A stretch of 54,719 nucleotides of DNA from Myxococcales bacterium. GTDB taxonomy: Bacteria; Lernaellota; Lernaellaia; Lernaellales; Lernaellaceae. Under the pieces are notes generated by a model. It searched no databases and was not told where the DNA came from. It saw only the letters and a list, made by a program, of their open reading frames with translations. The translations under genes were made by a program, and so were the position numbers. This document shows positions 4,436-23,582 of the stretch, in pieces. The stretch spans positions 1-54,719 of the forward strand of contig JAAYVF010000116.1 of assembly GCA_012517325.1 (NCBI GenBank). The letters are read 5' to 3'. Each line of letters starts with the position of its first letter. Within the stretch, counting starts at the first letter, position 1.

Positions 4436-6727
4436 TTACTGAACGTCGGGACTGCCTTCCGTTAAAACAATTAATTGATCGGCATTTACTCCGGTCCAGG
4501 TCTCGGTTTCGCCGCCCGGCCATTGCACTTCAATCGTATCCGCCACCGCTTCCTGGGCCAACCCGAAGTGCTGGGTGAACATCGGCGTGGCGCCGAAATG
4601 GCCGCGCGGACCCTGCACGTAGCGCACCTGCGTCAGGTCGCCGGCGGTGACCGTGATTCGAGCGCCGATGGCGTCGTGGTTGGCGTTGACGCCCACCAGC
4701 TTGACTTCCAACCAGTTGTTCTGATTGCCGATCTCGTTGCGGAACAGCCGGACGCCGCCGCCGTCGCCGTTGAAGGATTCCAGCAGATCCATGTCGCCGT
4801 CGCCGTCGAAATCGCCCCAGGCGTTGCCGGTGCCGGCGTGGACTTCGACGCCGGCCCAGTAGGTGATGTCCGCCAGCGTGCCGTCGGCCTGTTGCTCGTA
4901 CAACCGCGGATAGTGGCCGGAATAAAGGCTCGACATGAACAGGTCGAGCCGCCCGTCGTTGTTGTAGTCGACAAAGCTCGGGTCGACGTCGCCCTCGTCG
5001 GGCACGTAACCCGCGGCGTCGGTCTTGTCCTCGTAAACGTAGTCCGGCGCGCCGCCGCTGATCTTGAAGGCCGAGGTGCCGGTGGACGGCTGGTAGCGCG
5101 GATGGGCGATCGCCGACTGGATGTAGTCGAGGTTGCCGTCGTTGTTGTAATCGCCGAAATCGGCGCCGAAGTTGATCGCGCCGCCGTACGGATAGGACCG
5201 CTGCAGGTTCTTGTCGCGGGCCACGTCCTTGAAGGTGCCGTCGCCCTGGTTTTCCCAGACGTAGTTGTCGTTGCCGCCGTAATTGCACGACATCACGTCA
5301 TACCGGCCGTCGTTGTTGAAGTCGACCCAGGTCACCCCGTAGCTCGGCAGCGGGATCTCGTCGTTGATGCCGGCGGCATCCGTCACGTCGGCATAAGTGC
5401 CGTCGCCTTCGTTGTGGAACAGGTGGTCCGGGTAATAGGGCCCGTAAGGATAGTTGGTCATCCAGCAGGCGACGTAGAGGTCGAGGTTGCCGTCGTTGTC
5501 GTAGTCGCCGAAGCCGCCGGAGCTGTAGTACGACAGCTCCTCCAGACCCGTCGTCGTGGTCACCTCGGTGAACACGCCGTCGCCGTCGTTCAGGAAGAGG
5601 GCGTTGTGCGTATCGTCGTCGGCTTTCACCGATTCCGTCAACGCGAGGGTATCGTTATCGTCGTCGTTGTCGTCGTCGTCGTCGTCATCGTCGTCGCTCG
5701 CCCAGACGTCGATCGTCACCATGGAGATCAAATCCTTGTCGCCGTCGTTGTCGTAGTCGGCCAGGAGGGTCACGCCGCTCTTCGACACCTGATTCAAGCC
5801 GGATTCGACGGTCAGGTTGGAGAAAGTGCCGTCGCCGTTGTTGCGGTAATAGAACACGTTGTTCGGCGTGTTGGTGGTATCGAGCTTGGTCAGCACGATG
5901 TCCTGCAGGCCGTCGCCGTCCACGTCGACCCAGGCGGTGCGGTGCTGGCCGGTCACGTCGATGCCGGCGGCGGTGGTGACGTCGGTGAAGTACGGATCGC
6001 CCTCGCGCTCGCAGAAATGCCGGCCTTCGAGGCGGATCATGTAGTAGCGGCCGATGGCGCCCCAGCGGTCGCCGTACTGCGCGTAAAAGTCGGGCGTGTA
6101 ATACCGGCATTGATAGTAAGGATCGTCGGCGTAGCTGTAGTACAGCAGGGGCAGGCCGTCGTCCGATAGGTGTTCGTAAGCGACCCAGACCTTGGTGCCG
6201 GGCATGAACAGCAGGTTCTGATCGGTGACGTCCACCGTCACCCACCCGCCGTCCTTTTTCACCTCGACCTCGACAGGCGTCATCAGTTCGACCGTGGGGA
6301 TGAAATCGGTCCAGGGAATGTACTTCGGCACCGAACCCAGGTAATCGGCATACAGGTGGATGCGCGCCGTGCCCTTGCCTTCCTTGAAGTGCAGCTTGAT
6401 TTTCTGCAGGTGGTAGGGCGCCTGGAACTTGAACTGCATGGCTTCGACGTCGCCGGTCACAAAATCGCGTTTGGCGAGAAACGGCTCGTCGTCCTTGCGG
6501 TACTCGAAGTCCGTCCCGACGCAGCGATTCTGATTCTCCGGGCATTGAGCGGCATACAGATCCTTGATCGGGTCGCCGCAGGCGCTCGACGAATCGTCAT
6601 CGTCGGTCGGGCTGCCGTCGTCATCGTTGTCGTTGTCGTTGTTGTCGTCGTCGTCGCCTTGGTCGCAAGCCGCCAAAAACGCCGCCGACACCAGGATCAT
6701 CAGGACCAACCAACCCCATTTCGGCAT
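4436..6727 (-). CDS. FG-GAP/VCBS repeat lipoprotein with ASPIC/UnbV C-terminal domain (CRTAC1-like)
   Basis: 763 aa surface or periplasmic lipoprotein; GGAGG lies 6 bases before ATG. The signal peptide ends in LAAC. The mature protein begins with an Asp/Asn run (about residues 22-47), then a beta-rich domain with conserved Cys and Tyr (50-245). FG-GAP/VCBS repeats follow, each with a Ca-binding type motif such as DVDGDGLQD, DYDNDGDKD, DYDNDGNLD, DFNNDGRYD, DYNNDGNLD, DYNNDGRLD and DFDGDGDMD (about 265-670). The ASPIC/UnbV domain at the end holds GARITV, the RGHFGATPMFTQHFGL region and IEVQWPGG. A second Asp run interrupts the repeats at about residues 344-360. The fold is a beta-propeller; the role is probably adhesion or extracellular binding, which is inference. 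Confidence 0.92.
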   Translation of the reverse strand: MPKWGWLVLMILVSAAFLAACDQGDDDDNNDNDNDDDGSPTDDDDSSSACGDPIKDLYAAQCPENQNRCVGTDFEYRKDDEPFLAKRDFVTGDVEAMQFKFQAPYHLQKIKLHFKEGKGTARIHLYADYLGSVPKYIPWTDFIPTVELMTPVEVEVKKDGGWVTVDVTDQNLLFMPGTKVWVAYEHLSDDGLPLLYYSYADDPYYQCRYYTPDFYAQYGDRWGAIGRYYMIRLEGRHFCEREGDPYFTDVTTAAGIDVTGQHRTAWVDVDGDGLQDIVLTKLDTTNTPNNVFYYRNNGDGTFSNLTVESGLNQVSKSGVTLLADYDNDGDKDLISMVTIDVWASDDDDDDDDDNDDDNDTLALTESVKADDDTHNALFLNDGDGVFTEVTTTTGLEELSYYSSGGFGDYDNDGNLDLYVACWMTNYPYGPYYPDHLFHNEGDGTYADVTDAAGINDEIPLPSYGVTWVDFNNDGRYDVMSCNYGGNDNYVWENQGDGTFKDVARDKNLQRSYPYGGAINFGADFGDYNNDGNLDYIQSAIAHPRYQPSTGTSAFKISGGAPDYVYEDKTDAAGYVPDEGDVDPSFVDYNNDGRLDLFMSSLYSGHYPRLYEQQADGTLADITYWAGVEVHAGTGNAWGDFDGDGDMDLLESFNGDGGGVRLFRNEIGNQNNWLEVKLVGVNANHDAIGARITVTAGDLTQVRYVQGPRGHFGATPMFTQHFGLAQEAVADTIEVQWPGGETETWTGVNADQLIVLTEGSPDVQ

Positions 6728-7981: not shown

Positions 7982-8075
7982 CCGGCTGGAAAGCCGCCGC
8001 GTTGTTTGCTAGTATAGGGGCACTTTGGCTCAGGCTAGTTCCGTCGATTACCCTCTAGACAAGGAGAAGGCGCGC

Positions 8076-8843
8076 ATGGACCGACAAGAGATTTTGGCCC
8101 GGCTGCACTTGCATGCGGTGCTGCCGGTACTCGCCAAAGTGGTTGAGTTCGACCGCGAGGCGCGGGAAATCACGCAGGGGTGGCAGGCCACGTTGCAGTT
8201 CGGCTACATCACCGGACCGGTGGTGCAGTTGCAGTTCGCCGACGGCAATTGCCGGGTGTTTCGCCAGGCGGTGGCCAAGGCCGACGTCGCTTTTTGGTTC
8301 CCCACTCCGGCGATGCTCAACAACCTGTTCCTCGGGCAGGGTTTCACGTTGCCGCTCATCTACGGCTTCTGGAACATCAAACTGGTCAAGGGGTTCATGG
8401 CCCTGGCCAAACGCATGGAACACTACCTGAAGGGTTTGGACGGCAAGGAACTCGACGCCGAAACGACCCGCCAGGTATTGACCTGCAAGCTGGCGCTCGC
8501 CACCTGGGGCACCGCCGTGCTCGCCGAATGCGATCCGAAACTGGAAGCGTTTTCGAGCCACATTCCGGCCGGCGCCACCCTCAATTTCGTCATCAAACCC
8601 GACGGTCCCAACTTCTACCTGAAAAAGACCAACGCCGGCTCGTTCGTGGCCGGTGATGGCAGCGTGTCGGAGCCGACGGCCGAGCTGACTTTCGCCAGCC
8701 AGGCGATCGCCTCCCAGTTGCTGGAGGGCAAGTTGGATACTTTCGCCGCGTTGGGCTCGCAAGAAGTGGTCGTCCGTGGTCTGGTACCGATGGTCGACGA
8801 TGTGAGTGCCATTCTGGCGAAACTCGAAAAATACCTGGGATAG
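8076..8843 (+). CDS. SCP2-like (sterol carrier/lipid-binding type) protein, copy 1
   Basis: 255 aa from ATG 8076, supported by AAGGAGAAGG at 8061-8070; an upstream in-frame ATG at 8025 has no ribosome site. The N-terminal third reads as an SCP2-like fold (WQATLQFGYITGPVVQLQF, then CRVFRQAVAKADVAFWFPTP), in which a hydrophobic beta sheet binds lipid. The middle is helical, and the C-terminus repeats a similar beta pattern (LNFVIKPDG, TAELTFASQAIASQLLEGKL). It shares length and layout with the gene at 22815-23582. It is followed after 13 bases by a class III aminotransferase gene, so the two are co-expressed. Lipid binding is inferred from fold resemblance only. Confidence 0.65.
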   Translation: MDRQEILARLHLHAVLPVLAKVVEFDREAREITQGWQATLQFGYITGPVVQLQFADGNCRVFRQAVAKADVAFWFPTPAMLNNLFLGQGFTLPLIYGFWNIKLVKGFMALAKRMEHYLKGLDGKELDAETTRQVLTCKLALATWGTAVLAECDPKLEAFSSHIPAGATLNFVIKPDGPNFYLKKTNAGSFVAGDGSVSEPTAELTFASQAIASQLLEGKLDTFAALGSQEVVVRGLVPMVDDVSAILAKLEKYLG

Positions 8844-11778: not shown

Positions 11779-11918
11779 AAACCTAATTGAATCACCATTC
11801 ATTCTATCTCATTGTTTTCACTTATTAATAGGCAGTTACAAAACTTTTTTCAAAGCAAGGCCGGACTTGGCAAGCTATTTGTAATAGTCCAAAGCGGAAC
11901 TGAATGGAGGGTACGAAG

Positions 11919-11984
11919 ATGGTAGCGATCCTGGTGGCAATCACGGTGGCAGTGGCAATGATCACTGGTTCCCACATCGAATAG
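11919..11984 (+). CDS. 21-residue hydrophobic membrane microprotein
   Basis: A short frame encoding MVAILVAITVAVAMITGSHI plus a final Glu. The ribosome site is excellent: TGGAGG ends 8 bases before the ATG. The product is one transmembrane helix and almost nothing else. It lies 19 bases before the first GcvH-like gene, whose own N-terminal helix (MVFALVIATFLVAVAIDAF) resembles it at both protein and DNA level, so it may have arisen from a partial duplication. Small single-helix subunits are common in membrane respiratory complexes, which makes a structural subunit of the NrfD complex the best guess. Too short for most gene callers. Confidence 0.6.
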   Translation: MVAILVAITVAVAMITGSHIE

Positions 11985-12003: not shown

Positions 12004-12663
12004 ATGGTATTCGCATTGGTAATCGCGACGTTCCTGGTGGCAGTGGCGATCGACGCCTTTGTCATCAAACGGCTCGTTCATAAAAAGGCAAAGGAATTGG
12101 CGAAGCGGGAAGCTATCGACCAATACCTCGCTCCCCAGGTTGAAGAAGCGCAAGACATGTTGTTTCACCAAGGTCACACCTGGGTGCGGGTTCTGCGGGC
12201 GGTGGTGGAAGTCGGTTTGGACGATTTCACCAGCCGGTTGGTCGGCGAAATCACCAAAATCGAGACCCCGGAAGCGGGCACCAAGCTGCAGAAGGGCAAG
12301 AAAGCCTGGACGATCCATTTCGGCGACCGGAGCCTGACCCAGTTGGCGCCGATCACCGGACGGATCATCGAAGTGAACCAGGAACTGCTCAGCGACCCCA
12401 AGTCGCTCAACGACTCGCCCTACAAAAACGCCTGGATCATCAAAATCCTGCCGGACGCATTGACGAGCGAGGTTCCCGATCTGTACACTCCGTCGCGTTT
12501 CTACAAATGGGTCGATATGCAGAAAGCCCGGTTGGTACAGGAAAGCTTCCCGGAAATGGGCATGGCCTACGGCGACGGCGCGACGATGATCAACGGCGCG
12601 GCGCGGTCGATCGACTCCGAGAAGTGGCAGCAAATCGCGAAGAAATTATTCGGCACCAACTAG
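12004..12663 (+). CDS. Membrane-anchored GcvH-like (lipoyl-domain) protein lacking the lipoyl lysine, copy 1
   Basis: 219 aa; GGGGGG lies a few bases before ATG. Residues 3-20 form a membrane helix, followed by a basic coiled segment. The GcvH-like domain spans about 55-155: GHTWVRV, LVGEITKIETPEAGT, LAPITGRIIEVN, and a closing PYKNAWIIKI, all in GcvH order. A gapless 34-residue comparison with my memory of E. coli GcvH places Asp108 where GcvH has its lipoylated lysine. No GcvT or GcvP gene is near, so glycine cleavage is not its job. The C-terminus (RSIDSEKWQQIAKKLFG) recurs in copy 2. Its operon partners are cytochrome, ferredoxin and NrfD genes, so a structural or regulatory role at that membrane complex is likely. 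Confidence 0.8.
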   Translation: MVFALVIATFLVAVAIDAFVIKRLVHKKAKELAKREAIDQYLAPQVEEAQDMLFHQGHTWVRVLRAVVEVGLDDFTSRLVGEITKIETPEAGTKLQKGKKAWTIHFGDRSLTQLAPITGRIIEVNQELLSDPKSLNDSPYKNAWIIKILPDALTSEVPDLYTPSRFYKWVDMQKARLVQESFPEMGMAYGDGATMINGAARSIDSEKWQQIAKKLFGTN

Positions 12664-12682
12664 AACAACAGAGGGTAGGACG

Positions 12683-13384
12683 ATGCACGAATACTTTTAC
12701 TTTGTAGACTTTGTCCGGAATGTAAAAATCATGGAATACGGCGTGGCCTTCCTGTTCATCGGGCTGTTCGCGCTGTATTACCGCTTCATGATGAAGCCCG
12801 AGGCCGCGCCGGCCATGGCGCTGCATAAGGCCGTGGGGCAGGCGATGGATCGCATCCGCGGCTTGTTGGCTCCCGAGGGCCTGGCCTATCACCGCGGCCA
12901 TGCGTGGGTGAAGGTCGAGGGTCCGCAAATGGCGCTGGCCGGCATCGACGACTTCGCCTCCAAGCTGGTCGGCAAAATCCAGAGTGTGAAGCTGCCGGAA
13001 GTCGGCGCGGTGCTCAAGCAGGGCGAGAAAGCCTGGTCCCTGCAGATCGACGGCAAGACGGTCGACATGCTCTCGCCGCTGGACGGCAAGGTCGTGGCGG
13101 TCAACCCGGCGGCCGCCGCCGCGCTCGCCGACGATCCGTACGGCAAGGGCTGGCTGGTCAAGCTGGAATCGCCCAAGCTGACGGCGAGCCTGAAAAACCT
13201 GCTGACCGGTTCGCTGGCCAAGGTCTTCACCGAACAGTCGCTTGACGCGCTGTTCTCGCGCGCCGGCGGCAACCTGGGCGCGATGGCCGCCGACGGCGGT
13301 ACGCCGGTCCAGGGCATGGCGAAGAACATCGACCCGCAACACTGGGAGCGGATCGCGAAGGATTTCTTCCTGACGAACGATTAA
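12683..13384 (+). CDS. Membrane-anchored GcvH-like protein lacking the canonical lipoyl lysine, copy 2
   Basis: 233 aa; GAGGGTAGGA precedes ATG. One N-terminal membrane helix (about 19-33, YGVAFLFIGLFALYY), then a GcvH-like domain (about 68-165): GLAYHRGHAWVKVEG, ASKLVGKIQSVKLPEVGA, SPLDGKVVAVN, and PYGKGWLVKL. In the same gapless alignment Gly124 replaces the lipoyl lysine; Lys125 is one residue out of place. The end (KNIDPQHWERIAKDFF) matches the end of copy 1, showing that the two are tandem paralogues that have diverged. The 19-base gap to copy 1 shows co-transcription. A 13-bp hairpin separates it from the cytochrome gene. Confidence 0.8.
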   Translation: MHEYFYFVDFVRNVKIMEYGVAFLFIGLFALYYRFMMKPEAAPAMALHKAVGQAMDRIRGLLAPEGLAYHRGHAWVKVEGPQMALAGIDDFASKLVGKIQSVKLPEVGAVLKQGEKAWSLQIDGKTVDMLSPLDGKVVAVNPAAAAALADDPYGKGWLVKLESPKLTASLKNLLTGSLAKVFTEQSLDALFSRAGGNLGAMAADGGTPVQGMAKNIDPQHWERIAKDFFLTND

Positions 13385-13528: not shown

Positions 13529-13981
13529 ATGAAACCATTCATCCAGAAATTGACGCCATTTTTGTTGTTAAGCAGCTTGCTGCTGCTCGCGGCGGTCGTG
13601 GTCGCCTTCGCGGCGGAGACCAAACCGCAAGCGACCCCCGACCCGGCCGGGTTTGCCCCGGAAACGGTGACCATTGAAGGCATTAAAAAATTATTCGGTC
13701 CGGTCATGTTCACGCATAAGGCCCACCTGGGCTATGCCGGCAAGTGCGAGGAGTGCCATCACCACGCGACGCCCGGCGATTATCCGGCCTGCGGGCAATG
13801 CCACAAAAAAGACGAGATCAAAACCAAAAACGACAACCAGATCGGCCTGAAGGGCGCCTACCATACGCAATGCATGGGCTGCCACAAGGCGTCAGGCAGC
13901 GGCCCGCTGGGTTGCACCGATTGCCATGAAAAGCTCAAGGAACCGGTAGCGCAACCCAAACCGGCCGCGCCGGCGAAATAA
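13529..13981 (+). CDS. Tetrahaem c-type cytochrome (class III/c7-like)
   Basis: 150 aa. A Sec signal peptide covers about residues 1-29 (hydrophobic core LLLSSLLLLAAVVVAFA, then AE). The mature part has four CxxCH haem sites: CEECH, CGQCH, CMGCH and CTDCH, with extra histidines (FTHKAHLGY, CHHH, GAYHTQC) to act as distal ligands. This spacing fits small bis-His multihaem cytochromes of the c3/c7 type. A purine-rich ribosome site (GGGAGG) precedes ATG. It is followed after 42 bases by the HybA-like gene. It should accept electrons in the periplasm from the ferredoxin/NrfD pair, as in Cbc4-type or related menaquinol-cytochrome complexes (recalled comparison, not searched). Confidence 0.92.
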   Translation: MKPFIQKLTPFLLLSSLLLLAAVVVAFAAETKPQATPDPAGFAPETVTIEGIKKLFGPVMFTHKAHLGYAGKCEECHHHATPGDYPACGQCHKKDEIKTKNDNQIGLKGAYHTQCMGCHKASGSGPLGCTDCHEKLKEPVAQPKPAAPAK

Positions 13982-14023: not shown

Positions 14024-14938
14024 ATGACTATCAGTCGCAGAGGTTTTTTGAAGCTCATGGCCGGAGCGGGCGTTGCCGGCGCGGCGGCCACGGTCGGCGT
14101 GTCCCAACCGCAAGCCGCCGAACATGAGTTTTACGGAAATCCGGACCGCTTCGGCGTGCTTTTCGACAGCAGTCGGTGCATCGGCTGCCGGAGCTGCGAA
14201 GCGGCCTGTAACGCCACCCACGATTTGCCTAAGCCGCCGGCGCAGCCGTTCGACGATCCGAAGGTGCTGAACGAAAAACGGCGGCTCGACCAGTCGCGGT
14301 TCACCCTGGTCAACAAATTCACCAAGGAAGAGACCGGGGGCGCGGAAACGTTCGTGAAGATCCAGTGCATGCACTGCGACGAGCCGGCCTGCTTCTCGGC
14401 CTGCCTGGCCAAGGCGTTTACCAAGACGCCGGAAGGTCCGGTGGTTTACAACTCGAAGCAATGCATCGGTTGCCGGTACTGCATGCAGGCCTGCCCGTTC
14501 TACGTGCCGACCTACGAGTACCAGAACGCCTTCACGCCGCGGGTCCGCAAGTGCACGATGTGCCACGAGCGGATCATCCAGGGCGGCATCCCGGCTTGCG
14601 TCGAGACCTGCCCGCAGGAAGCGTTGATCTTCGGCAAGCGCGCCGACCTGATCAAGATCGCGCGCCGGCGCATCGACGACGAAAAAGCCGGTTACGTCGA
14701 CCACATCTACGGCGAGCAGGAAGTCGGCGGCACCTGCTGGATGTACATCACCAAGACGCCGTTCGAGAAACTGCAATTCCGAATGGACGTGGGCATCACC
14801 CCGATGCCGAAGCTCACTTACGGCTACCTGGCAACCATCCCGGTGCTGCACACGGGCCTGCCCATCCTGCTGGCCGGCTTCTACGTCATCACCAAGAACA
14901 TGAACCTGAAAAAGAAGGAACAGGGAGGTCACCAATGA
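14024..14938 (+). CDS. HybA/NrfC-like periplasmic 4x[4Fe-4S] ferredoxin subunit
   Basis: 304 aa. The N-terminus SRRGFLKLMAGAGVAGAAAT is a twin-arginine signal. Four cysteine groups follow as in HybA/NrfC/DmsB: CIGCRSCEAAC (about 47-57), CMHCDEPACFSAC, CIGCRYCMQAC and CTMCHERIIQG-x-x-PACVETC. A C-terminal membrane helix (ATIPVLHTGLPILLAGFYVI) is present, a HybA-like trait that anchors the protein at the outer face of the cytoplasmic membrane. The stop codon overlaps the start of the NrfD gene (ATGA), indicating translational coupling and a tight complex. GGGAG lies upstream of ATG. It passes electrons between the NrfD quinone site and the tetrahaem cytochrome. Confidence 0.93.
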   Translation: MTISRRGFLKLMAGAGVAGAAATVGVSQPQAAEHEFYGNPDRFGVLFDSSRCIGCRSCEAACNATHDLPKPPAQPFDDPKVLNEKRRLDQSRFTLVNKFTKEETGGAETFVKIQCMHCDEPACFSACLAKAFTKTPEGPVVYNSKQCIGCRYCMQACPFYVPTYEYQNAFTPRVRKCTMCHERIIQGGIPACVETCPQEALIFGKRADLIKIARRRIDDEKAGYVDHIYGEQEVGGTCWMYITKTPFEKLQFRMDVGITPMPKLTYGYLATIPVLHTGLPILLAGFYVITKNMNLKKKEQGGHQ

Positions 14939-16167
14939 GCCAGCAAACCGTTGCCGTGCAAAACGTCAAAGCCTCCTGGTTCCGCGAAAAAATCCTGATG
15001 GGCAAAACCGTCGGGGAATACATCCGCGGCTTTTTCACGCCGCTCAACCTGGTCGCCGGCCTGATCCTGGCCGTCGGCCTCCCGGTCATGGCCTACCGCC
15101 TGCTCAAGGGCCTGGGCGCCTCGACCAACCTGAGCGACATCAATCCGTGGGGCCTCTGGCTGGCCTTCGACATGTTCTTCGGCGTCGCCGTGGCGACCGG
15201 CGGTTTCTGCATGGTCGTCGGCGTCTACCTCTTCGGCCGCAAGGACTACAAACCGATGGTCCGGCCCGCCATTCTCACCGGCTTCCTGGGCTACTTCTTC
15301 GCGATCGTCGGCCTCGCGTTCGACCTGGGCCGTTACTGGGCGCTGCCCCTGCCGTTTTACTACCTGGGCACCGCCTCGGTCCTGTTCCTGGTCGCCGAAC
15401 ACCTGGCGCTGTATCTGACGATCCAGTTCGTCGAGTTCCTGCCCGCCGTGGTGGAATGGTTGAACCTGCGGCGGATCCGCCTCTGGCTCGACAAGATCCA
15501 CATCGGCGCGGTCATTCTCGGCTCGGTGCTGGTGATGGGCCACCAATCGGCCCTGGGCGCGATGTTCCTGCTGATGCCCACCCGCCTGCACCCGCTGTGG
15601 TACACGACGTTCATTCCGTACCTGTTCTTCACTTCCTGCCTGGCCGGCGGCCTGTCCATGCTGGTGCTGGAAAGCATGATCTCGCACAAGGTCTTCGGCT
15701 ATCAGGTGAAGGAAACCGACCATGAACTGATGGACCGCCTGACCCTCGGCCTGGGCAAGGCCGCGGCGTTCTGCCTGTTCAGCTACTTCGCCCTGATGGT
15801 CCTGTCGCTGATCCGCGGCATGCAATGGCAGATGCTGTTCCACACCGGCTGGGGCTACTGGAAGCTGTTTGAAATCGCCTTCAGCACCCTGCTGCCGATG
15901 TACCTTTACGCCATGGCGGTTCGCCACCAGAAAGCTTCGCTGGTCCGGTGGGCGAGCGGCATCACGGTGCTGGGCATCATGCTCAACCGGTTCAACGTCG
16001 TGATCGTCGCCCTGAACTGGAACGCGCCGGTCCGCTACTATCCGAGCTGGATGGAAGTGATGCTTTCGCTGACCCTGGCCACCCTGCTGGTCCTGGTTTT
16101 CAAGTGGGTCGTCAACCGCATGCCGGTCCTCTACCGCCTGCCCGACTTCCCCGACGAGGATCATTAG
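14935..16167 (+). CDS. NrfD/HybB-like quinone-interacting membrane subunit
   Basis: 410 aa, start ATG 14935 overlapping the ferredoxin stop and preceded by CAGGGAGG. An amphipathic N-terminus is followed by about ten membrane helices; the first, GFFTPLNLVAGLILAVGLPV, and the NPWGLWLAFDMFFGVAVATG segment are characteristic of the HybB branch of the NrfD/PsrC family. Conserved polar residues in helices (for example the FDLGRYW and GHQSALGAM regions) would line the quinone site. It oxidises or reduces menaquinone and exchanges electrons with the HybA-like subunit outside the membrane. A strong terminator follows, so it closes the operon. Confidence 0.93.
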   Translation: MSQQTVAVQNVKASWFREKILMGKTVGEYIRGFFTPLNLVAGLILAVGLPVMAYRLLKGLGASTNLSDINPWGLWLAFDMFFGVAVATGGFCMVVGVYLFGRKDYKPMVRPAILTGFLGYFFAIVGLAFDLGRYWALPLPFYYLGTASVLFLVAEHLALYLTIQFVEFLPAVVEWLNLRRIRLWLDKIHIGAVILGSVLVMGHQSALGAMFLLMPTRLHPLWYTTFIPYLFFTSCLAGGLSMLVLESMISHKVFGYQVKETDHELMDRLTLGLGKAAAFCLFSYFALMVLSLIRGMQWQMLFHTGWGYWKLFEIAFSTLLPMYLYAMAVRHQKASLVRWASGITVLGIMLNRFNVVIVALNWNAPVRYYPSWMEVMLSLTLATLLVLVFKWVVNRMPVLYRLPDFPDEDH

Positions 16168-16278: not shown

Positions 16279-17463
16279 ATGAAAGCCGACGAACTGCGAA
16301 ACTTGATAGCCGGCGGCGAGAGCGACCGCGTCGAATTCAAGAAATCGATCGCCAATCCTGACCGCATCCGGCAAACGGTGTGCGCACTGGCGAACGATCT
16401 CCCGCGGAATGAAAAAACCGGTGTGGTATTCGTTGGCTTGACCGACCAAGGCACTCCTTCCGGTTTGACCATCGATGATAAACTCCTAAAAATACTCGCT
16501 GACATTCGCCAGGAAATTTTGCCGTTTCCGGTGATCGCCATCGAACGGCTTTCCCTGCCGAACGGCGAATGTGCCTACCTCGCCGTCGAGCCGGCCATCG
16601 ATCCGCCGGTCCGGTATAAAAACACCGTCTTCGTGCGCGTCGGGCCCACAACCCGGCAAGCCAATTCGGCCGAGGAATTACGGCTCATTGACAAACGCCG
16701 CGCGCATGAACTTCCATGGGACATTCGGGAAGCGCCATCGCTGACCTTGGACGATCTGAACATTGATTTCTTCCAACGCGAATATCTGCCGATCGCCGTT
16801 GCGCCGGAAGTATTGGCGGAAAATCAGCGTACGATCGATCAGCAATTGCAATCCCTGCACCTGGCCAATCCCGGTAATCCGCCCAAACCGACCCACCTCG
16901 GAATTCTGACCGTCGGCAAGGATCCGCGACAGCACATCCCCGGCGCCTATATCCAATTTATAAGGATCGACGGCGACAACATGGGTGATGCGATCATCGA
17001 CCAAAAGGAAATCGACGGCCCGCTTTCCGAGTTGTTGCGCCGCTTGGACGATCTGCTGGAAATCAATATCCGCAACGCCCTGCAAATTGCCGGCGGGCCG
17101 ACCGACACGCCACGCCCCGATTACCCGCTGCTTGCCCTGCAACAATTGGCGCGCAACGCCGTGATGCATCGCCGCTATGAGGGAACCCACGCGCCCGTCC
17201 GCATCTACTGGTTTCGCAATCGCGTGGAAATCACCAATCCCGGCGGACCATTCGGCATGGTAACACGGGAGAATTTCGGGTCGCCCGGCCTGACCGACTA
17301 CCGCAACCCGCACCTGACCGAGGCGATGAAAAATCTTGGCTTCGTGCAGAAATTCGGCGTCGGCATTCCCATTGCCCAGCAACAACTCGAAAGAAATGGA
17401 AATCCGCCCTTGGAATTTCAAATTGAGGACAATTTTCTCTCGGTGATTCTTAGGAGCCGATAA
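16279..17463 (+). CDS. AlbA_2 (Schlafen-like) plus HATPase_c_4 protein
   Basis: 394 aa. The N-terminal AlbA_2 domain (about 1-135) opens with GESDRVEFKKSI, then a helix ending in ANDLP and FVGLTDQGTPSGL, the usual E-x-x-x-E-F-K and V-G-x-x-D-x-G pattern. The C-terminal ATPase-like domain has QQLARNAVMHRRYEG (about 288-302) and RNRVEITNPGGPFG, matching the N-A-x-x-H-R-x-Y and I-x-N-P-G motifs of HATPase_c_4. Such proteins were long annotated as transcriptional regulators or RecG-like and occur often in mobile or defence islands. The ribosome site is weak. The stop overlaps the next start by one base. A+T content is higher than in the flanks, hinting at acquisition. Confidence 0.88.
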   Translation: MKADELRNLIAGGESDRVEFKKSIANPDRIRQTVCALANDLPRNEKTGVVFVGLTDQGTPSGLTIDDKLLKILADIRQEILPFPVIAIERLSLPNGECAYLAVEPAIDPPVRYKNTVFVRVGPTTRQANSAEELRLIDKRRAHELPWDIREAPSLTLDDLNIDFFQREYLPIAVAPEVLAENQRTIDQQLQSLHLANPGNPPKPTHLGILTVGKDPRQHIPGAYIQFIRIDGDNMGDAIIDQKEIDGPLSELLRRLDDLLEINIRNALQIAGGPTDTPRPDYPLLALQQLARNAVMHRRYEGTHAPVRIYWFRNRVEITNPGGPFGMVTRENFGSPGLTDYRNPHLTEAMKNLGFVQKFGVGIPIAQQQLERNGNPPLEFQIEDNFLSVILRSR

Positions 17464-18473
17464 TGAGTATCCCGGTCATCACTTTTTTCAACAACAAAGG
17501 CGGGGTCGGTAAAACATCTCTGGTCTATCATTTGGCCTGGATGTACTCCGAATTGGGCTATCGGGTCCTCGCCGCCGACTTGGACCCGCAGGCCAATTTG
17601 TCGGCGGCTTTTCTGGACGAGGAGGAGTTGCTCGAATTCTGGCCGGAAGGCAATCATCCGAAAACAATCTTTGGCTTCCTTGAACCATTGATCAAGGGAA
17701 CTGGCGATATCGGCGACCCTTTTCTCAAGCCGATCAATGACAAATTGGCCATCATTATCGGCGATCTTTTGCTTTCCACTTTCGAGGATCAATTGTCCGA
17801 GGTATGGCCAAAATGTCTCGACCGTGATGAGCGCGCTTTTCGCGTCACCTCCGCTCTTTGGCGTATCCTTCAAAAGGGCGGCGAACAGTTCGAAGCCGAT
17901 CTGATTCTGATGGATTTGGGCCCGAATCTTGGCGCCATCAACCGCACCGCGCTGATTTCCTCCGATTTTGTCGTGGTTCCTCTTTCGCCCGACTTGTTTT
18001 CCCTGCAAGGGTTGCGAAATCTAGGTCCCACCTTGCGGAAGTGGCGAAGCGCTTGGAAGGAGCGATTGGAAAGAAATCCAGCCATGGATATTCATTTGCC
18101 ATCAGGATTGATGAAACCCATCGGTTACATCCTTTTGCAACATTCCGTGCGTCTCGACAGACCGGTCAAAGCTTACGAACGGTGGATCGAACAAATTCCC
18201 GATACTTATCATCGAGAACTTTTGGAAGAACGCGAAAGCCTCATTACCGTGTCCTCGGCGGATGATCATTGTTTAGCGCTACTCAAACACTATCGAAGCT
18301 TGATGCCACTTGCCCAGGAAGCCCGGAAACCCATGTTCGCGCTCAAATCGGCGGACGGCGCCATCGGCTCGCATTTGCAAGCCGTGCAGCGGGCGCAAGA
18401 AGATTTCGCTAAATTGGCCCGTAGTATCGCCGAACGAACCGGCATCACTCAACAAACGTTTCAACTTTTATAA
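17463..18473 (+). CDS. ParA/MinD-type ATPase
   Basis: 336 aa. The deviant Walker A motif KGGVGKT (residues 12-18) follows ITFFNN, and LAADLDPQANLSAAF is the A-prime region of ParA. Walker B-like LILMDLGPNLGAINRTAL and DFVVVPLSPDLFSLQGLRNL complete the ParA pattern. The central and C-terminal parts (about 200-336) are longer than in typical plasmid ParA and contain no recognisable helix-turn-helix. No ParB gene follows. AGGAG lies 7 bases before the ATG and the start overlaps the AlbA_2 gene stop, so the two products are probably made in fixed ratio. Likely part of a two-protein system with the upstream gene rather than a partition locus. Confidence 0.87.
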   Translation: MSIPVITFFNNKGGVGKTSLVYHLAWMYSELGYRVLAADLDPQANLSAAFLDEEELLEFWPEGNHPKTIFGFLEPLIKGTGDIGDPFLKPINDKLAIIIGDLLLSTFEDQLSEVWPKCLDRDERAFRVTSALWRILQKGGEQFEADLILMDLGPNLGAINRTALISSDFVVVPLSPDLFSLQGLRNLGPTLRKWRSAWKERLERNPAMDIHLPSGLMKPIGYILLQHSVRLDRPVKAYERWIEQIPDTYHRELLEERESLITVSSADDHCLALLKHYRSLMPLAQEARKPMFALKSADGAIGSHLQAVQRAQEDFAKLARSIAERTGITQQTFQLL

Positions 18474-19031
18474 TCACCACGGAAAAATCCGCTTCTTGCG
18501 CGGCAGCTTTTCGTTGAGCCGGGTGCGGCAGGGCAGGCAGAACTCGGCGGATTTGAAATCCACGTCCTCGACGTAGGTGGACGAGCGCATCACGCAGACC
18601 GGGTCCACGCAGTGCAGCAGGCCGAAGGTGTGGCCCATTTCGTGGATCGCCTCCTTGGCGACGCGCTCGGCCAGGCGCGCCGGATTTTTCGGCAGGCCGT
18701 AAAACTCGCTACGCAGGCGGAAGGTGGAGAGGATCGAGCCGACGCCGTTCAACTGGGCCTCGCCGAAGAGAAAAGTAAAGATGGGGAGAAAGAGGTCGAC
18801 CTCGGCGATACCCTGGATGCGAAACGCGTCCGGCGGCGGGTGGCGGAGCAGGTCGCCCAGCAGCTTGGACACGTGATACTGCTTGCGCACGGCGTCGTAG
18901 GCGTACTGGATGTCGGCGAGGCCGTCGCCGACGCGCACTTCGAGCAGAAAGGTCTCGCCCAGGGCGTTGGTCGCCGCCTCCAACACGGCGGGTTCGACCT
19001 TGCCCAGCGGCATGAGGTAGACGAGCGACAT
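18474..19031 (-). CDS. amzA: Archaemetzincin family zinc protease
   Basis: 185 aa. The signature is complete: HEMGHTFGLLHC, zinc ligands His130, His134 and His140, catalytic Glu131, then Cys146, Met148 in CVM, and a second pair CLPC, which fits the archaemetzincin pattern with a structural zinc. No signal peptide, so cytoplasmic. Length is normal. It lies 6 bases after the sigma-54 regulator gene and is co-transcribed with it. Its stop abuts the stop of the ParA gene from the other strand with no spacer at all and no visible terminator. Substrates of bacterial archaemetzincins are unknown. Confidence 0.94.
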   Translation of the reverse strand: MSLVYLMPLGKVEPAVLEAATNALGETFLLEVRVGDGLADIQYAYDAVRKQYHVSKLLGDLLRHPPPDAFRIQGIAEVDLFLPIFTFLFGEAQLNGVGSILSTFRLRSEFYGLPKNPARLAERVAKEAIHEMGHTFGLLHCVDPVCVMRSSTYVEDVDFKSAEFCLPCRTRLNEKLPRKKRIFPW

Positions 19032-19037
19032 CCCGGA

Positions 19038-20407
<1,370 letters not shown>

Positions 20408-20408
<1 letters not shown>

Positions 20409-22105
20409 CAGACCGGCTCTCCTTTCGCGTTGGCGTCGGACGGCGGCTCCCCGGCGGGCGCCGGCCGTTCGCGCGGCAATACGATGGTGAACGTGGTGCC
20501 CTGGCCCACTTGCGAGGTCACTTGAACGGTGCCGCCGTGCGACTGCACGATCCCGTAAACCACCGACAAACCCATGCCGATGCTTTTCTTGCTTTCCTTG
20601 AGCGAAAAGAACGGCTCGAAAATGCGCGGCAGGATCTCCTCGGGAATGCCCTTGCCCGTGTCGATCACCTTGATCGTCACCTCTTTTTCGGCGGCGCAGT
20701 CCGTCCAGACCCAGAGTTTGCCGCCCTTTTCCATCGCGTCCAGCGCATTGACCATCAGCGCGACGAGCATCTGCTGGATGCCGCTGGAATCGCAGTAGAG
20801 GCGGTCGCTGCCCTCGCCGCCGCTCTGCTTGCCCAGTTCGACGTTCTTCATGTCGGCGCTGTGCTTGATCAGGGCGATGCTCTTGTCGACGATCGAAGTG
20901 AGGTTGTCCCACTTGAACTCGCCGAACGACTGCTTGGAAAACATCAGCAGATTTTTCACGATGTCGCCGACGCGCTTGACCTCGCCGGCCGACAGCTCGA
21001 GGTACTGGTTGATCTTGTCGCCGCTCTGCGGCGGCGGCGTCTCGCGGCCGAGCAGCTTCATCGTCAGCTTGAGGTAGCTCAGCACGCCCGACAACGGGTT
21101 GTTGATTTCGTGGGCGACCATCGCCGACAGCTTGCCGAGCGAGGCCATCTTTTCCTGCATCAGCACGCGGTCGTGCGCCTTCTCCAACTCCGTGGTGCGC
21201 TCGTGAACCTTTTGCTCGAGCGTCCGGCTCCACTCCACCAGGTCGGCGTGCGCCTCGCCCAGCCGGCGGGTCATGACGCCGAACGACTCGGCCATCGCGC
21301 CGATCTCGTCGTTGCCGGCCGGCGGCAGCTTGACGCCGAAATCGCCGTGGGCCAGCGCCGTCGACGCGCGCGTCAACTGGACGATCGGCCGCATCAGGTA
21401 GCGCGAAACCAGCAGCGCCAGCAGCACCGTCGCCACCAGGGTCAGCGCCAGGAAGCCCAGCAGGAACTTGACGTCGGTGTAGTACGGCTCGAGCGCCTCG
21501 TCCTCGAACAGCGCGACGATGATGATCCAGTCGTAGGGCTTGAAGTAACCGACCTTGGCCAGTTTGGTCTTGAGCTTGCCGGAATCGCCGGGCCACGGGT
21601 AATGGATCGTCTTCACCTCGCCGGGCGCCAGGTGAATGGCATCGCGGCGGATCTGTTTGAGTTCCTCGCCGCCGATCATGTTAATGGCGAACAGGTTCTG
21701 CTTTTCGAGGTGGGGATGGACCTGGAACGTGCCGCTGGAATCCAGTACGTAGCAGTAGCCCGTCCGGCCGACGTGGATGCCGCGGATCAATTCGCGCAAG
21801 GTCAGGAAGCGATCGCCCGTCTGCCAGGCCGGCGAGGCGCCGGAAACCTGATCGACCTCGTTGTGGCCTTCCTGCCGGATGCGGTCCAGCGCCTCCTGGG
21901 CCTCGCACAACAGGGTGATCATCTTGACGATGCCGTCCAGCTCGTGCTCGGCGGAGCGCAGATTGAATTGCCGCAGGTTTTGCAGGCTGGCGAAGCCGTA
22001 GCCGACCAGCGGCACCAGGGAAATGGCGAGGAACATCAGCAGCAGTTTGCGGCCGAAGAGACCGAGCGACGGAAACCGCGAGTTTTTCGGCTTTTTTTCA
22101 CCCAT
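20408..22105 (-). CDS. Cache-HAMP sensor histidine kinase (NtrB-like output)
   Basis: 565 aa from ATG 22105; a TTG 45 bases upstream is possible, and neither has a clear ribosome site. TM1 at 21-41, a periplasmic single-Cache-type domain at about 42-210 (GRTGYCYVLDSSGTFQVHP, then YFKPYDWIIIVALFEDE), TM2 at 214-236, HAMP at 237-290, a coiled linker, HisKA with phospho-accepting His332 in AHEINNPLSG, and a HATPase domain with N (MVNALDAM), G1 (DTGKGIPEEI) and G2 (GMGLSVVYGIVQSHGG) boxes. Cache domains bind small carboxylates or amino acids outside the cell; ligand unknown. It signals to the NtrC-type regulator encoded next. Confidence 0.94.
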
Positions 22106-22246
22106 GTTCGTTACATCGCCGCACCGTTGGAAATGACGGATCGAAAACAAACTACCACATATAAACGATTGGTAACACAGTTGTCGCGGCTTGGGTAGGC
22201 GGTTCGTGGCCGAGAAAACGATTCGTGAGGGAAGGCATTATAAAGC

Positions 22247-22814: not shown

Positions 22815-23582
22815 TTATCGCGTTAGTATTTCCTCAACACGCTGCATTTGCAAGCCGATCTCTTTTTGGTATTCCATCGCTCCTTCGAGATGCAAATAAC
22901 CTTTCGAGACGGCCTCCACCATCTGGACCTTGGCGGTCAGCACCTGATATGCGGCGTCAAAATCCGGAAACTCGAACAGCACGAACGGACGCCGGCGCGT
23001 GTAGATGCCGCGGCCGGATTTGGTCTTGCCGGCCTTCATGCGCAAGTAGGCCGCCGGGCCGTTTTTCACGGCAAACTGAAAGATGCGGTCCGGGCTGATC
23101 TTCGTCATGTCGGTCATTTCCGGATCGCCGGCCTTGTTGAGCTGCGACATGGCGGTCGTCACCATGTAGAGCAGCAGCTTGACCTTGAGCGCGCGCTTGG
23201 CCGGATCCTTCGGGTCGGCGTCGGGCATAAGGATCTTCAGGCTCAGCAGCAGCGGCACGACGCGCACGATCACGTCGAGCCGGTACAAGCCCTTCACCGC
23301 CGGCAGCGCCAGGCGGCCGGCGAAGAAATCGTTGAGCGACTTGAGATCCTTGAAAACGAACGCCACCGTCGGCTTCTCGTGCCGGCCCTGCACCACCTCG
23401 AGCGTGTCCTCGGCGAAGACCAGGTGGGCGGCGGTGTCGGTGTCCTTGACCTCGAACTGCACCACGCCGGTCAGCTTCTTGGTGAGCAGGCGGATCCATT
23501 TTTCATCCTCGCGCACCACCTTGGTCAGCGGCAGCGCGGCGCGCAAAAACAGTCGGGCCTGGATTTCGTCGGGCGTCGGCAT
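22815..23582 (-). CDS. SCP2-like (lipid-binding type) protein, copy 2
   Basis: 255 aa, exactly the length of the gene at 8076-8843. Shared features: a start of the form (E)IQARLFLRAALPLTKVV against (E)ILARLHLHAVLPVLAKVV, a beta stretch (GVVQFEVKDTDTAAHLVF), a segment KPTVAFVFKDLKSLNDFFAG against KADVAFWFPTPAMLNNLFLG, and a similar helical middle. These show true paralogy. It lies 2 bases after the transketolase C-terminal subunit gene and so is the last gene of that operon. Lipid or hydrophobic ligand binding is inferred from the SCP2-like pattern only. Confidence 0.65.
   Translation of the reverse strand: MPTPDEIQARLFLRAALPLTKVVREDEKWIRLLTKKLTGVVQFEVKDTDTAAHLVFAEDTLEVVQGRHEKPTVAFVFKDLKSLNDFFAGRLALPAVKGLYRLDVIVRVVPLLLSLKILMPDADPKDPAKRALKVKLLLYMVTTAMSQLNKAGDPEMTDMTKISPDRIFQFAVKNGPAAYLRMKAGKTKSGRGIYTRRRPFVLFEFPDFDAAYQVLTAKVQMVEAVSKGYLHLEGAMEYQKEIGLQMQRVEEILTR

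Follow-up and report, generated by a model that had tools for sequence, protein, structure and literature searches.

Lysine-free, membrane-anchored GcvH-like proteins as a candidate cytoplasmic part of an Hmc-like redox module linked to two-component signalling

The window, by which we mean the whole 54,719-nucleotide stretch of DNA that was analysed, encodes two adjacent proteins with similarity to the glycine cleavage protein GcvH, which we refer to as H1 and H2 (Table 1). They precede genes that a preliminary description of this DNA had named as cytochrome, ferredoxin and NrfD genes, and which can now be specified as encoding a tetrahaem c3-type cytochrome, an HmcB/HybA-like protein and an HmcC/HybB-like protein. 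Beyond these, on the minus strand, a trio consisting of a sensor kinase, an NtrC-type regulator and an archaemetzincin (peptidase M54, a rare metalloprotease) spans 18474-22150; these three genes, which the preliminary description missed, are part of the same system. The space between the Hmc genes and the trio is filled by a Schlafen-AlbA/RecG-like gene and then a ParA-like ATPase (KGGVGKT in the open reading frame), at 16279-18473 on the plus strand; neither forms a recurrent family in other loci and we treat them as an insertion. The system is flanked at some distance by a protein with a weak SCP2 sterol-transfer match (8025-8843, plus strand) and by one that resembles it by eye (22815-23582, minus strand). 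Elsewhere in the window, at 4436-6727 on the minus strand, there is a secreted protein with a lipoprotein-like signal, a long Asp/Asn-rich low-complexity linker and many DxDxDG repeats of the calcium-binding type.

Table 1. Positions of the features of the GcvH-like/Hmc/two-component system in the window.
Feature	Position	Strand	Evidence and remarks
Sigma-54-like -24/-12 box TGGCAAGCTATTTGTA	11868..11883	+	Consensus match only; imperfect, GT for GC at -12
Small ORF, 21-aa hydrophobic membrane peptide MVAILVAITVAVAMITGSHIE	11919..11984	+	Between the sigma-54-like box and H1
H1, membrane-anchored lysine-free GcvH-like protein	12004..12663	+	Asp108 at lipoyl site
H2, membrane-anchored lysine-free GcvH-like protein	12683..13384	+	Gly124 at lipoyl site; family with HmcD-like helix
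Tetrahaem class III (c3-type) cytochrome c, exported	13529..13981	+	Cytochrom_CIII 1.9e-13; four CxxCH; signal-type N-terminus
HmcB/HybA-like periplasmic iron-sulfur protein	14024..14938	+	NF045715 HmcB 4.6e-121; Tat motif SRRGFLK; C-terminal tail helix
HmcC/HybB-like (NrfD-type) integral membrane quinone-module protein	14938..16167	+	NF045714 HmcC 4.4e-120
Archaemetzincin (peptidase M54), intact zinc motif HEMGHTFGLLHC	18474..19031	-	PF07998 2.6e-21; NF033823 149.6 bits, above cut-off
NtrC-type sigma-54-dependent response regulator	19038..20408	-	Response_reg, Sigma54_activat, HTH_8
Membrane sensor histidine kinase, periplasmic Cache domain	20408..22150	-	Cache, HAMP, HisKA, HATPase_c

The GcvH-like character first ascribed to the two open reading frames is borne out by their matches to Pfam GCV_H (8.4e-22 for H1, 2.8e-18 for H2) and by AlphaFold models made from family alignments. 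Modelled singly, as the preliminary description had advised, both proteins keep the H-protein fold, with a pLDDT of 86 and a TM-score of 0.92 against an H-protein crystal structure for H1, and 91 and 0.88, respectively, for H2. Alignment to solved H-proteins places Asp108 of H1 (codon GAC) and Gly124 of H2 (GGC) at the position of the lipoyl lysine, with Lys125 (AAG) directly after Gly124, in agreement with the residues originally named. The added N-terminal membrane helices and the common C-terminal motif, here ID..W..IAK..F, were likewise found in both proteins. No gcv genes were present among the window neighbours examined and none recurs across the loci read, so that this earlier observation also held; the genome's single ordinary GcvH, with ESVK present, sits on a different contig. 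With the NCBIfam gcvH profile, H1 and H2 reach 66.4 and 68.0 bits, both below the cut-off of 115.85, and, lacking both the lipoyl lysine and an equivalog score, they are on sequence grounds not GcvH. They resemble GcvH in fold and in most framework residues, but differ from it in having no lipoyl lysine, no accompanying gcv genes, a membrane helix, a C-terminal helical extension that is absent from GcvH, and a clade of their own. Automatic annotation is likely to name such proteins glycine cleavage protein H, and the conserved operon described below would then go unnoticed.

Of seven genomes of the window's phylum that were examined, five have the pair, including the window's own, and one of these five, G004, has it twice. 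The lysine is absent from every copy within the phylum, H1 reading FG[DE]R or IGER at this site and H2 mostly DG[KR]. A profile search of 145 genomes recovered long family members in 13 of the 138 representative genomes that belong to other lineages. A scan of named genomes, in which an alignment of three sequences succeeded as the query (H1 alone gave no matches, and a nine-sequence H2 alignment held no stretch conserved enough to serve), returned 189 places, 80 loci of which were read. Carriers include Gemmatimonadota, Syntrophaceae and other Deltaproteobacteria, Desulfobulbaceae, Nitrospinae, Nitrospirae, Schekmanbacteria, Rokubacteria, KSB1, Ignavibacteria, Bacteroidetes, Chlorobiota, Glassbacteria, Acidobacteria, Caldithrix, Eisenbacteria, Poribacteria, Abyssobacteria, Bdellovibrionales, Planctomycetota and Riflebacteria.

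Across 238 aligned sequences the lipoyl column holds Gly in 65, Ser in 43, Asp in 30, Asn in 19 and Lys in 17, the last mostly in GK[RK] turns and never in an ESVK context. In a phylogenetic tree the lysine-free family stands apart from true GcvH (support 0.97), and the window's H1 and H2 fall into separate clades, each spanning several lineages. The absence of the lysine throughout the family, together with this separation, therefore indicates that it was not lost locally and that the H1 and H2 types are old paralogues. A family alignment had been proposed at the outset as a check on the lysine, and two contrary outcomes had been named, lysine-bearing relatives that are lipoylated and loci mostly without respiratory neighbours; neither was seen. 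It might be argued that H1 and H2 are carriers after all, lipoylated or modified on a nearby lysine, given that H2 has Lys125 one residue past the site and that a few relatives have Lys in the exact column. We consider this very improbable and have rejected it, because Gly, Ser, Asp and Asn make up most of the column, no member retains ESVK, and sister copies have Arg or Ser in place of Lys125. That loss of the catalytic lysine marks decaying, functionless gcvH duplicates is less credible still, and this too was rejected, being contradicted by conservation: the family extends over about 20 lineages, its gene order recurs, it has invariant residues, H1 and H2 form distinct clades, and the folds are predicted with confidence.

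The gene order is generally a GcvH-like gene, HmcB, HmcC, then one or two further genes of the GcvH-like kind, the sensor kinase, the NtrC-type regulator and the archaemetzincin; this order, H1-HmcB-HmcC-H2-H3-kinase-regulator-M54, or permutations of it, recurs in about 20 named lineages. Many loci are cut by contig ends; with that proviso, genes for HmcB or HmcC were found at 66 of the 80, a regulator gene at 54, a kinase gene at 49 and M54 at 47. Among the 28 loci in which the GcvH/Hmc cluster is flanked on either side by 5 kb or more, the figures are 25 for Hmc, 23 for the regulator and 21 for M54. Exceptions exist: in several Ignavibacteriales loci (L121, L123) pairs of the H1/H2 type have no Hmc, kinase or M54 gene within flanks of up to 10 kb, and the second pair in G004 (contig C85, L026:5675-7249), likewise of the H1/H2 type, has no Hmc gene nearby, although G004 carries the full operon as well.

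The window's HmcB-like protein scores 403.6 bits against a cut-off of 420 (NF045715), slightly below it, and the HmcC-like protein 401.4 against 550 (NF045714), so that by profile both are close homologues lying under the equivalog cut-offs. In Hmc operons HmcD follows HmcC. H2 comes after HmcC in most loci, including those in G005, G001 and G004 (contig C109); the window, with H2 ahead of the cytochrome, is unusual in this respect. The N-terminal helix of 28 of the 42 H2-type relatives is matched by HmcD (NF045712; best E-value 1e-10). None of the 25 H1-type proteins has such a match, and nor does the window's own H2. This HmcD-like helix and the gene position are the strongest sign that H2 may be one of the subunits of an Hmc-like complex with replacements for HmcE and HmcF. 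With the Hmc complex of Desulfovibrio vulgaris, HmcABCDEF (PMC10924467), the loci have in common the order of their HmcB- and HmcC-like proteins and the resemblance of the H2-type helix to HmcD; unlike it, they also contain GcvH-like modules, a kinase with c-haem, a sigma-54 regulator and an archaemetzincin. Clustering of neighbours found no recurrent HmcE, HmcF or 16-haem HmcA, the window's cytochrome being tetrahaem only. The earlier proposal that a lipoyl fold has been reused in a respiratory complex is thus well supported in one part, that of a non-lipoylated component of a respiratory membrane module, for which the missing lysine, the frequency of Hmc genes and the HmcD helix all speak.

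These data could be accommodated by a plain respiratory electron-transfer complex, in which H1 and H2 are an inert cytoplasmic scaffold and the kinase and sigma-54 regulator control transcription only, as two-component systems do for nitrate and TMAO respiration. HmcB and HmcC genes adjoin in most loci, and when all remaining neighbours are clustered multihaem cytochromes c are the sole others that recur widely. There is also precedent for a structural role, since RnfC and NqrA contain lysine-free lipoyl-like barrels as structural domains of membrane redox complexes, and the family gives weak matches to the RnfC_N and NQRA_N profiles; those barrels, however, are not GcvH and belong to NADH-linked complexes. 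Against such a plain complex, neighbour clustering found no dehydrogenase or terminal reductase recurring in the loci, and the receiver fusions described below place signalling on the GcvH-like protein itself. We regard it as possible but unlikely.

The same respiratory reading is also incomplete as an account of the locus, which adds a kinase, a sigma-54 activator, an archaemetzincin and receiver fusions that point towards signalling; membership of the complex is itself something we infer. The receiver, sigma-54 activator and HTH domains of the regulator, with its partner kinase, identify an NtrC-type two-component pair, and in the window the start of the regulator gene overlaps the stop codon of the kinase gene. 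Exactly one periplasmic CxxCH is found in 59 of 67 kinases, most commonly in the context VDxxAEACYxCHA. Their sensor domain gives weak matches to the Geobacter-type Mcp40H-20_sensor, one just over the cut-off, and none to DUF3365. The c-haem Cache sensors already described (sCache_heme; Geobacter GSU0582 and GSU0935) similarly bind a single c-haem covalently, in a signalling protein whose periplasmic domain is of the Cache type (PMC12889525), but the kinases here differ from them in these profile matches. The window kinase is, by position and score, the counterpart of the one-haem kinases elsewhere; it has no CxxCH, and the Cache domain is a plain one in the kinases of the window's phylum and of L085. 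In most loci with such a kinase, a small cytochrome gene separates a GcvH-like gene from HmcB.

A receiver domain is fused to ten GcvH-like open reading frames in five loci, five of the ten also having a membrane helix (TM-REC-GcvH), and two loci with such fusions, L051 and L052, have no separate regulator. The fusions suggest that the GcvH-like side is cytoplasmic and that phosphorylation may act on it. One could alternatively suppose that the HmcBC complex is the sensor, reading the redox state of quinone or of a periplasmic carrier, and that the GcvH-like modules inform the kinase, as input rather than output. Operon linkage would be the same, and the haem-less kinase of the window and L085, with its extra cytochrome gene between the GcvH-like gene and HmcB, would suit this arrangement. 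A receiver domain on GcvH indicates output, however, and most kinases, having their own c-haem sensor, need no other input; we therefore judge an input role rather improbable. A further formulation, which we put forward tentatively and with somewhat less than even confidence, makes HmcBC an effector or sensor of the two-component pathway, the lysine-less lipoyl fold an output or docking module of the response regulator (as in REC-GcvH) and the archaemetzincin a proteolytic step.

Archaemetzincins have been called scantily characterised (PMC3427221). The window's protein has the zinc site HExxHxxGxxHC and the Cys4 motif that follows it (HEMGHTFGLLHCVDPVCVM), and belongs to the archaemetzincins; HExxHxxGxxHCx4CxM is kept in 56 of 61 M54 homologues. 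CarG of Myxococcus, a proteolytically inactive transcriptional regulator, is itself an M54 homologue and illustrates that such proteins can serve regulation (PMC3427221), but CarG has lost the catalytic Glu, in contrast to the conservation of the zinc motif here. The M54 and regulator genes share a strand in 46 of 46 loci, with a median gap of 3 bp. Among 138 representative genomes, M54 occurs in 10 of the 13 with the GcvH-like family and in 17 of 125 without it (Fisher p 3e-6). Within the window's phylum the trio of kinase, regulator and M54 accompanies H1/H2 in all five genomes that have the pair, and M54 is missing from the two genomes that have no H1/H2. In G001 the trio is directly adjacent, in divergent orientation; in G004 it is nearby, in G006 it lies about 17 kb from the GcvH-like genes and in G005 it is on a separate contig.

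Upstream of H1, a box of the form TGGNNNG-N4-TTG[TGA]A is present in six of six H1 copies of the phylum, and the window's genome encodes sigma-54. Across lineages, a sigma-54-like score of at least 10 was reached by 37.5% of 48 operon-first genes compared with 4.9% of 287 control genes (Mann-Whitney p 2e-7), while the strict sigma-54 pattern gave only chance-level matches in the window. Such boxes also fit the reading in which the kinase and regulator act on transcription alone. Half-sites of the TTCAAC/GTTGAA type upstream of H1 exceed shuffled sequences in four of six copies, the window not being among them, and we propose no enhancer for the window. The small peptide encoded between the box and H1 resembles the helix at the N-terminus of H1-type proteins from other lineages, and similar small peptides precede H1 in G006 and G005, which belong to the same family as the window genome.

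On balance, we think it probable, though with limited confidence, that H1 and H2 are the non-lipoylated, GcvH-fold cytoplasmic face of an Hmc-like redox module that is coupled to two-component signalling. Weighing against this are the loci with GcvH-like pairs but no Hmc genes, the distance of the trio in G006 and, in the window itself, the kinase devoid of a haem motif, the H2 that does not match HmcD and the imperfect promoter box. From the family and its gene content, linkage, fold, loss of lysine, domain fusions and promoter enrichment, we infer an assembly, a topology, a course of electron flow, a direction of signalling and a role for the protease, as follows. HmcB, a tail-anchored periplasmic iron-sulfur protein, and HmcC, an integral protein of the quinone-binding type, would pass electrons between c-type carriers of the periplasm and the quinone pool. 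The permanently non-lipoylated H1 and H2 would each be tethered to the membrane through a helix, which in H2 is of the HmcD type, and would take the cytoplasmic place that HmcE and HmcF have in classical Hmc. The kinase, with its periplasmic c-haem in most lineages, could sense the periplasmic redox state or a haem ligand and phosphorylate the NtrC-type regulator, which would switch the operon on through sigma-54; where the regulator is absent, receiver-GcvH fusions would let phosphorylation act directly on the complex. The archaemetzincin, co-transcribed with the regulator, probably cleaves a component of the circuit.

GcvH-like proteins encoded with redox metabolism have a parallel in LbpA of the sHdr sulfur-oxidation pathway, which was likewise recruited to redox metabolism but strictly keeps the lipoyl lysine (PMC6067878), in contrast to the H1/H2 family, and Hdr-like genes are not among the recurrent neighbours of our loci. 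We found no description of the GcvH-like/Hmc/kinase/regulator/M54 combination in the open-licence literature, and the operon as a whole is apparently undescribed. If the proposed coupling is correct, a cofactor-carrying fold would have been turned into a signalling or assembly part, respiratory electron flow would be tied directly, at the molecular level, to a phosphorelay in about 20 bacterial lineages, and bacterial archaemetzincins, which have no known role, would be placed in a genetic context and in a circuit that can be tested. The main question can be put to a direct test with the receiver-GcvH fusions.

A third type of GcvH-like protein, with Cys-rich N-terminal domains, was observed at L046:7950-9059, L042:10001-10828 and L055:10737-11690, and gave no Pfam match above cut-off except GCV_H. 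Its Cys-rich patterns, C..M.AGVVSYKLCD....C..CPFD or CPFLEEV..YCKAYP..KMIPS..LCLS...C.EY, probably bind metal or Fe-S.
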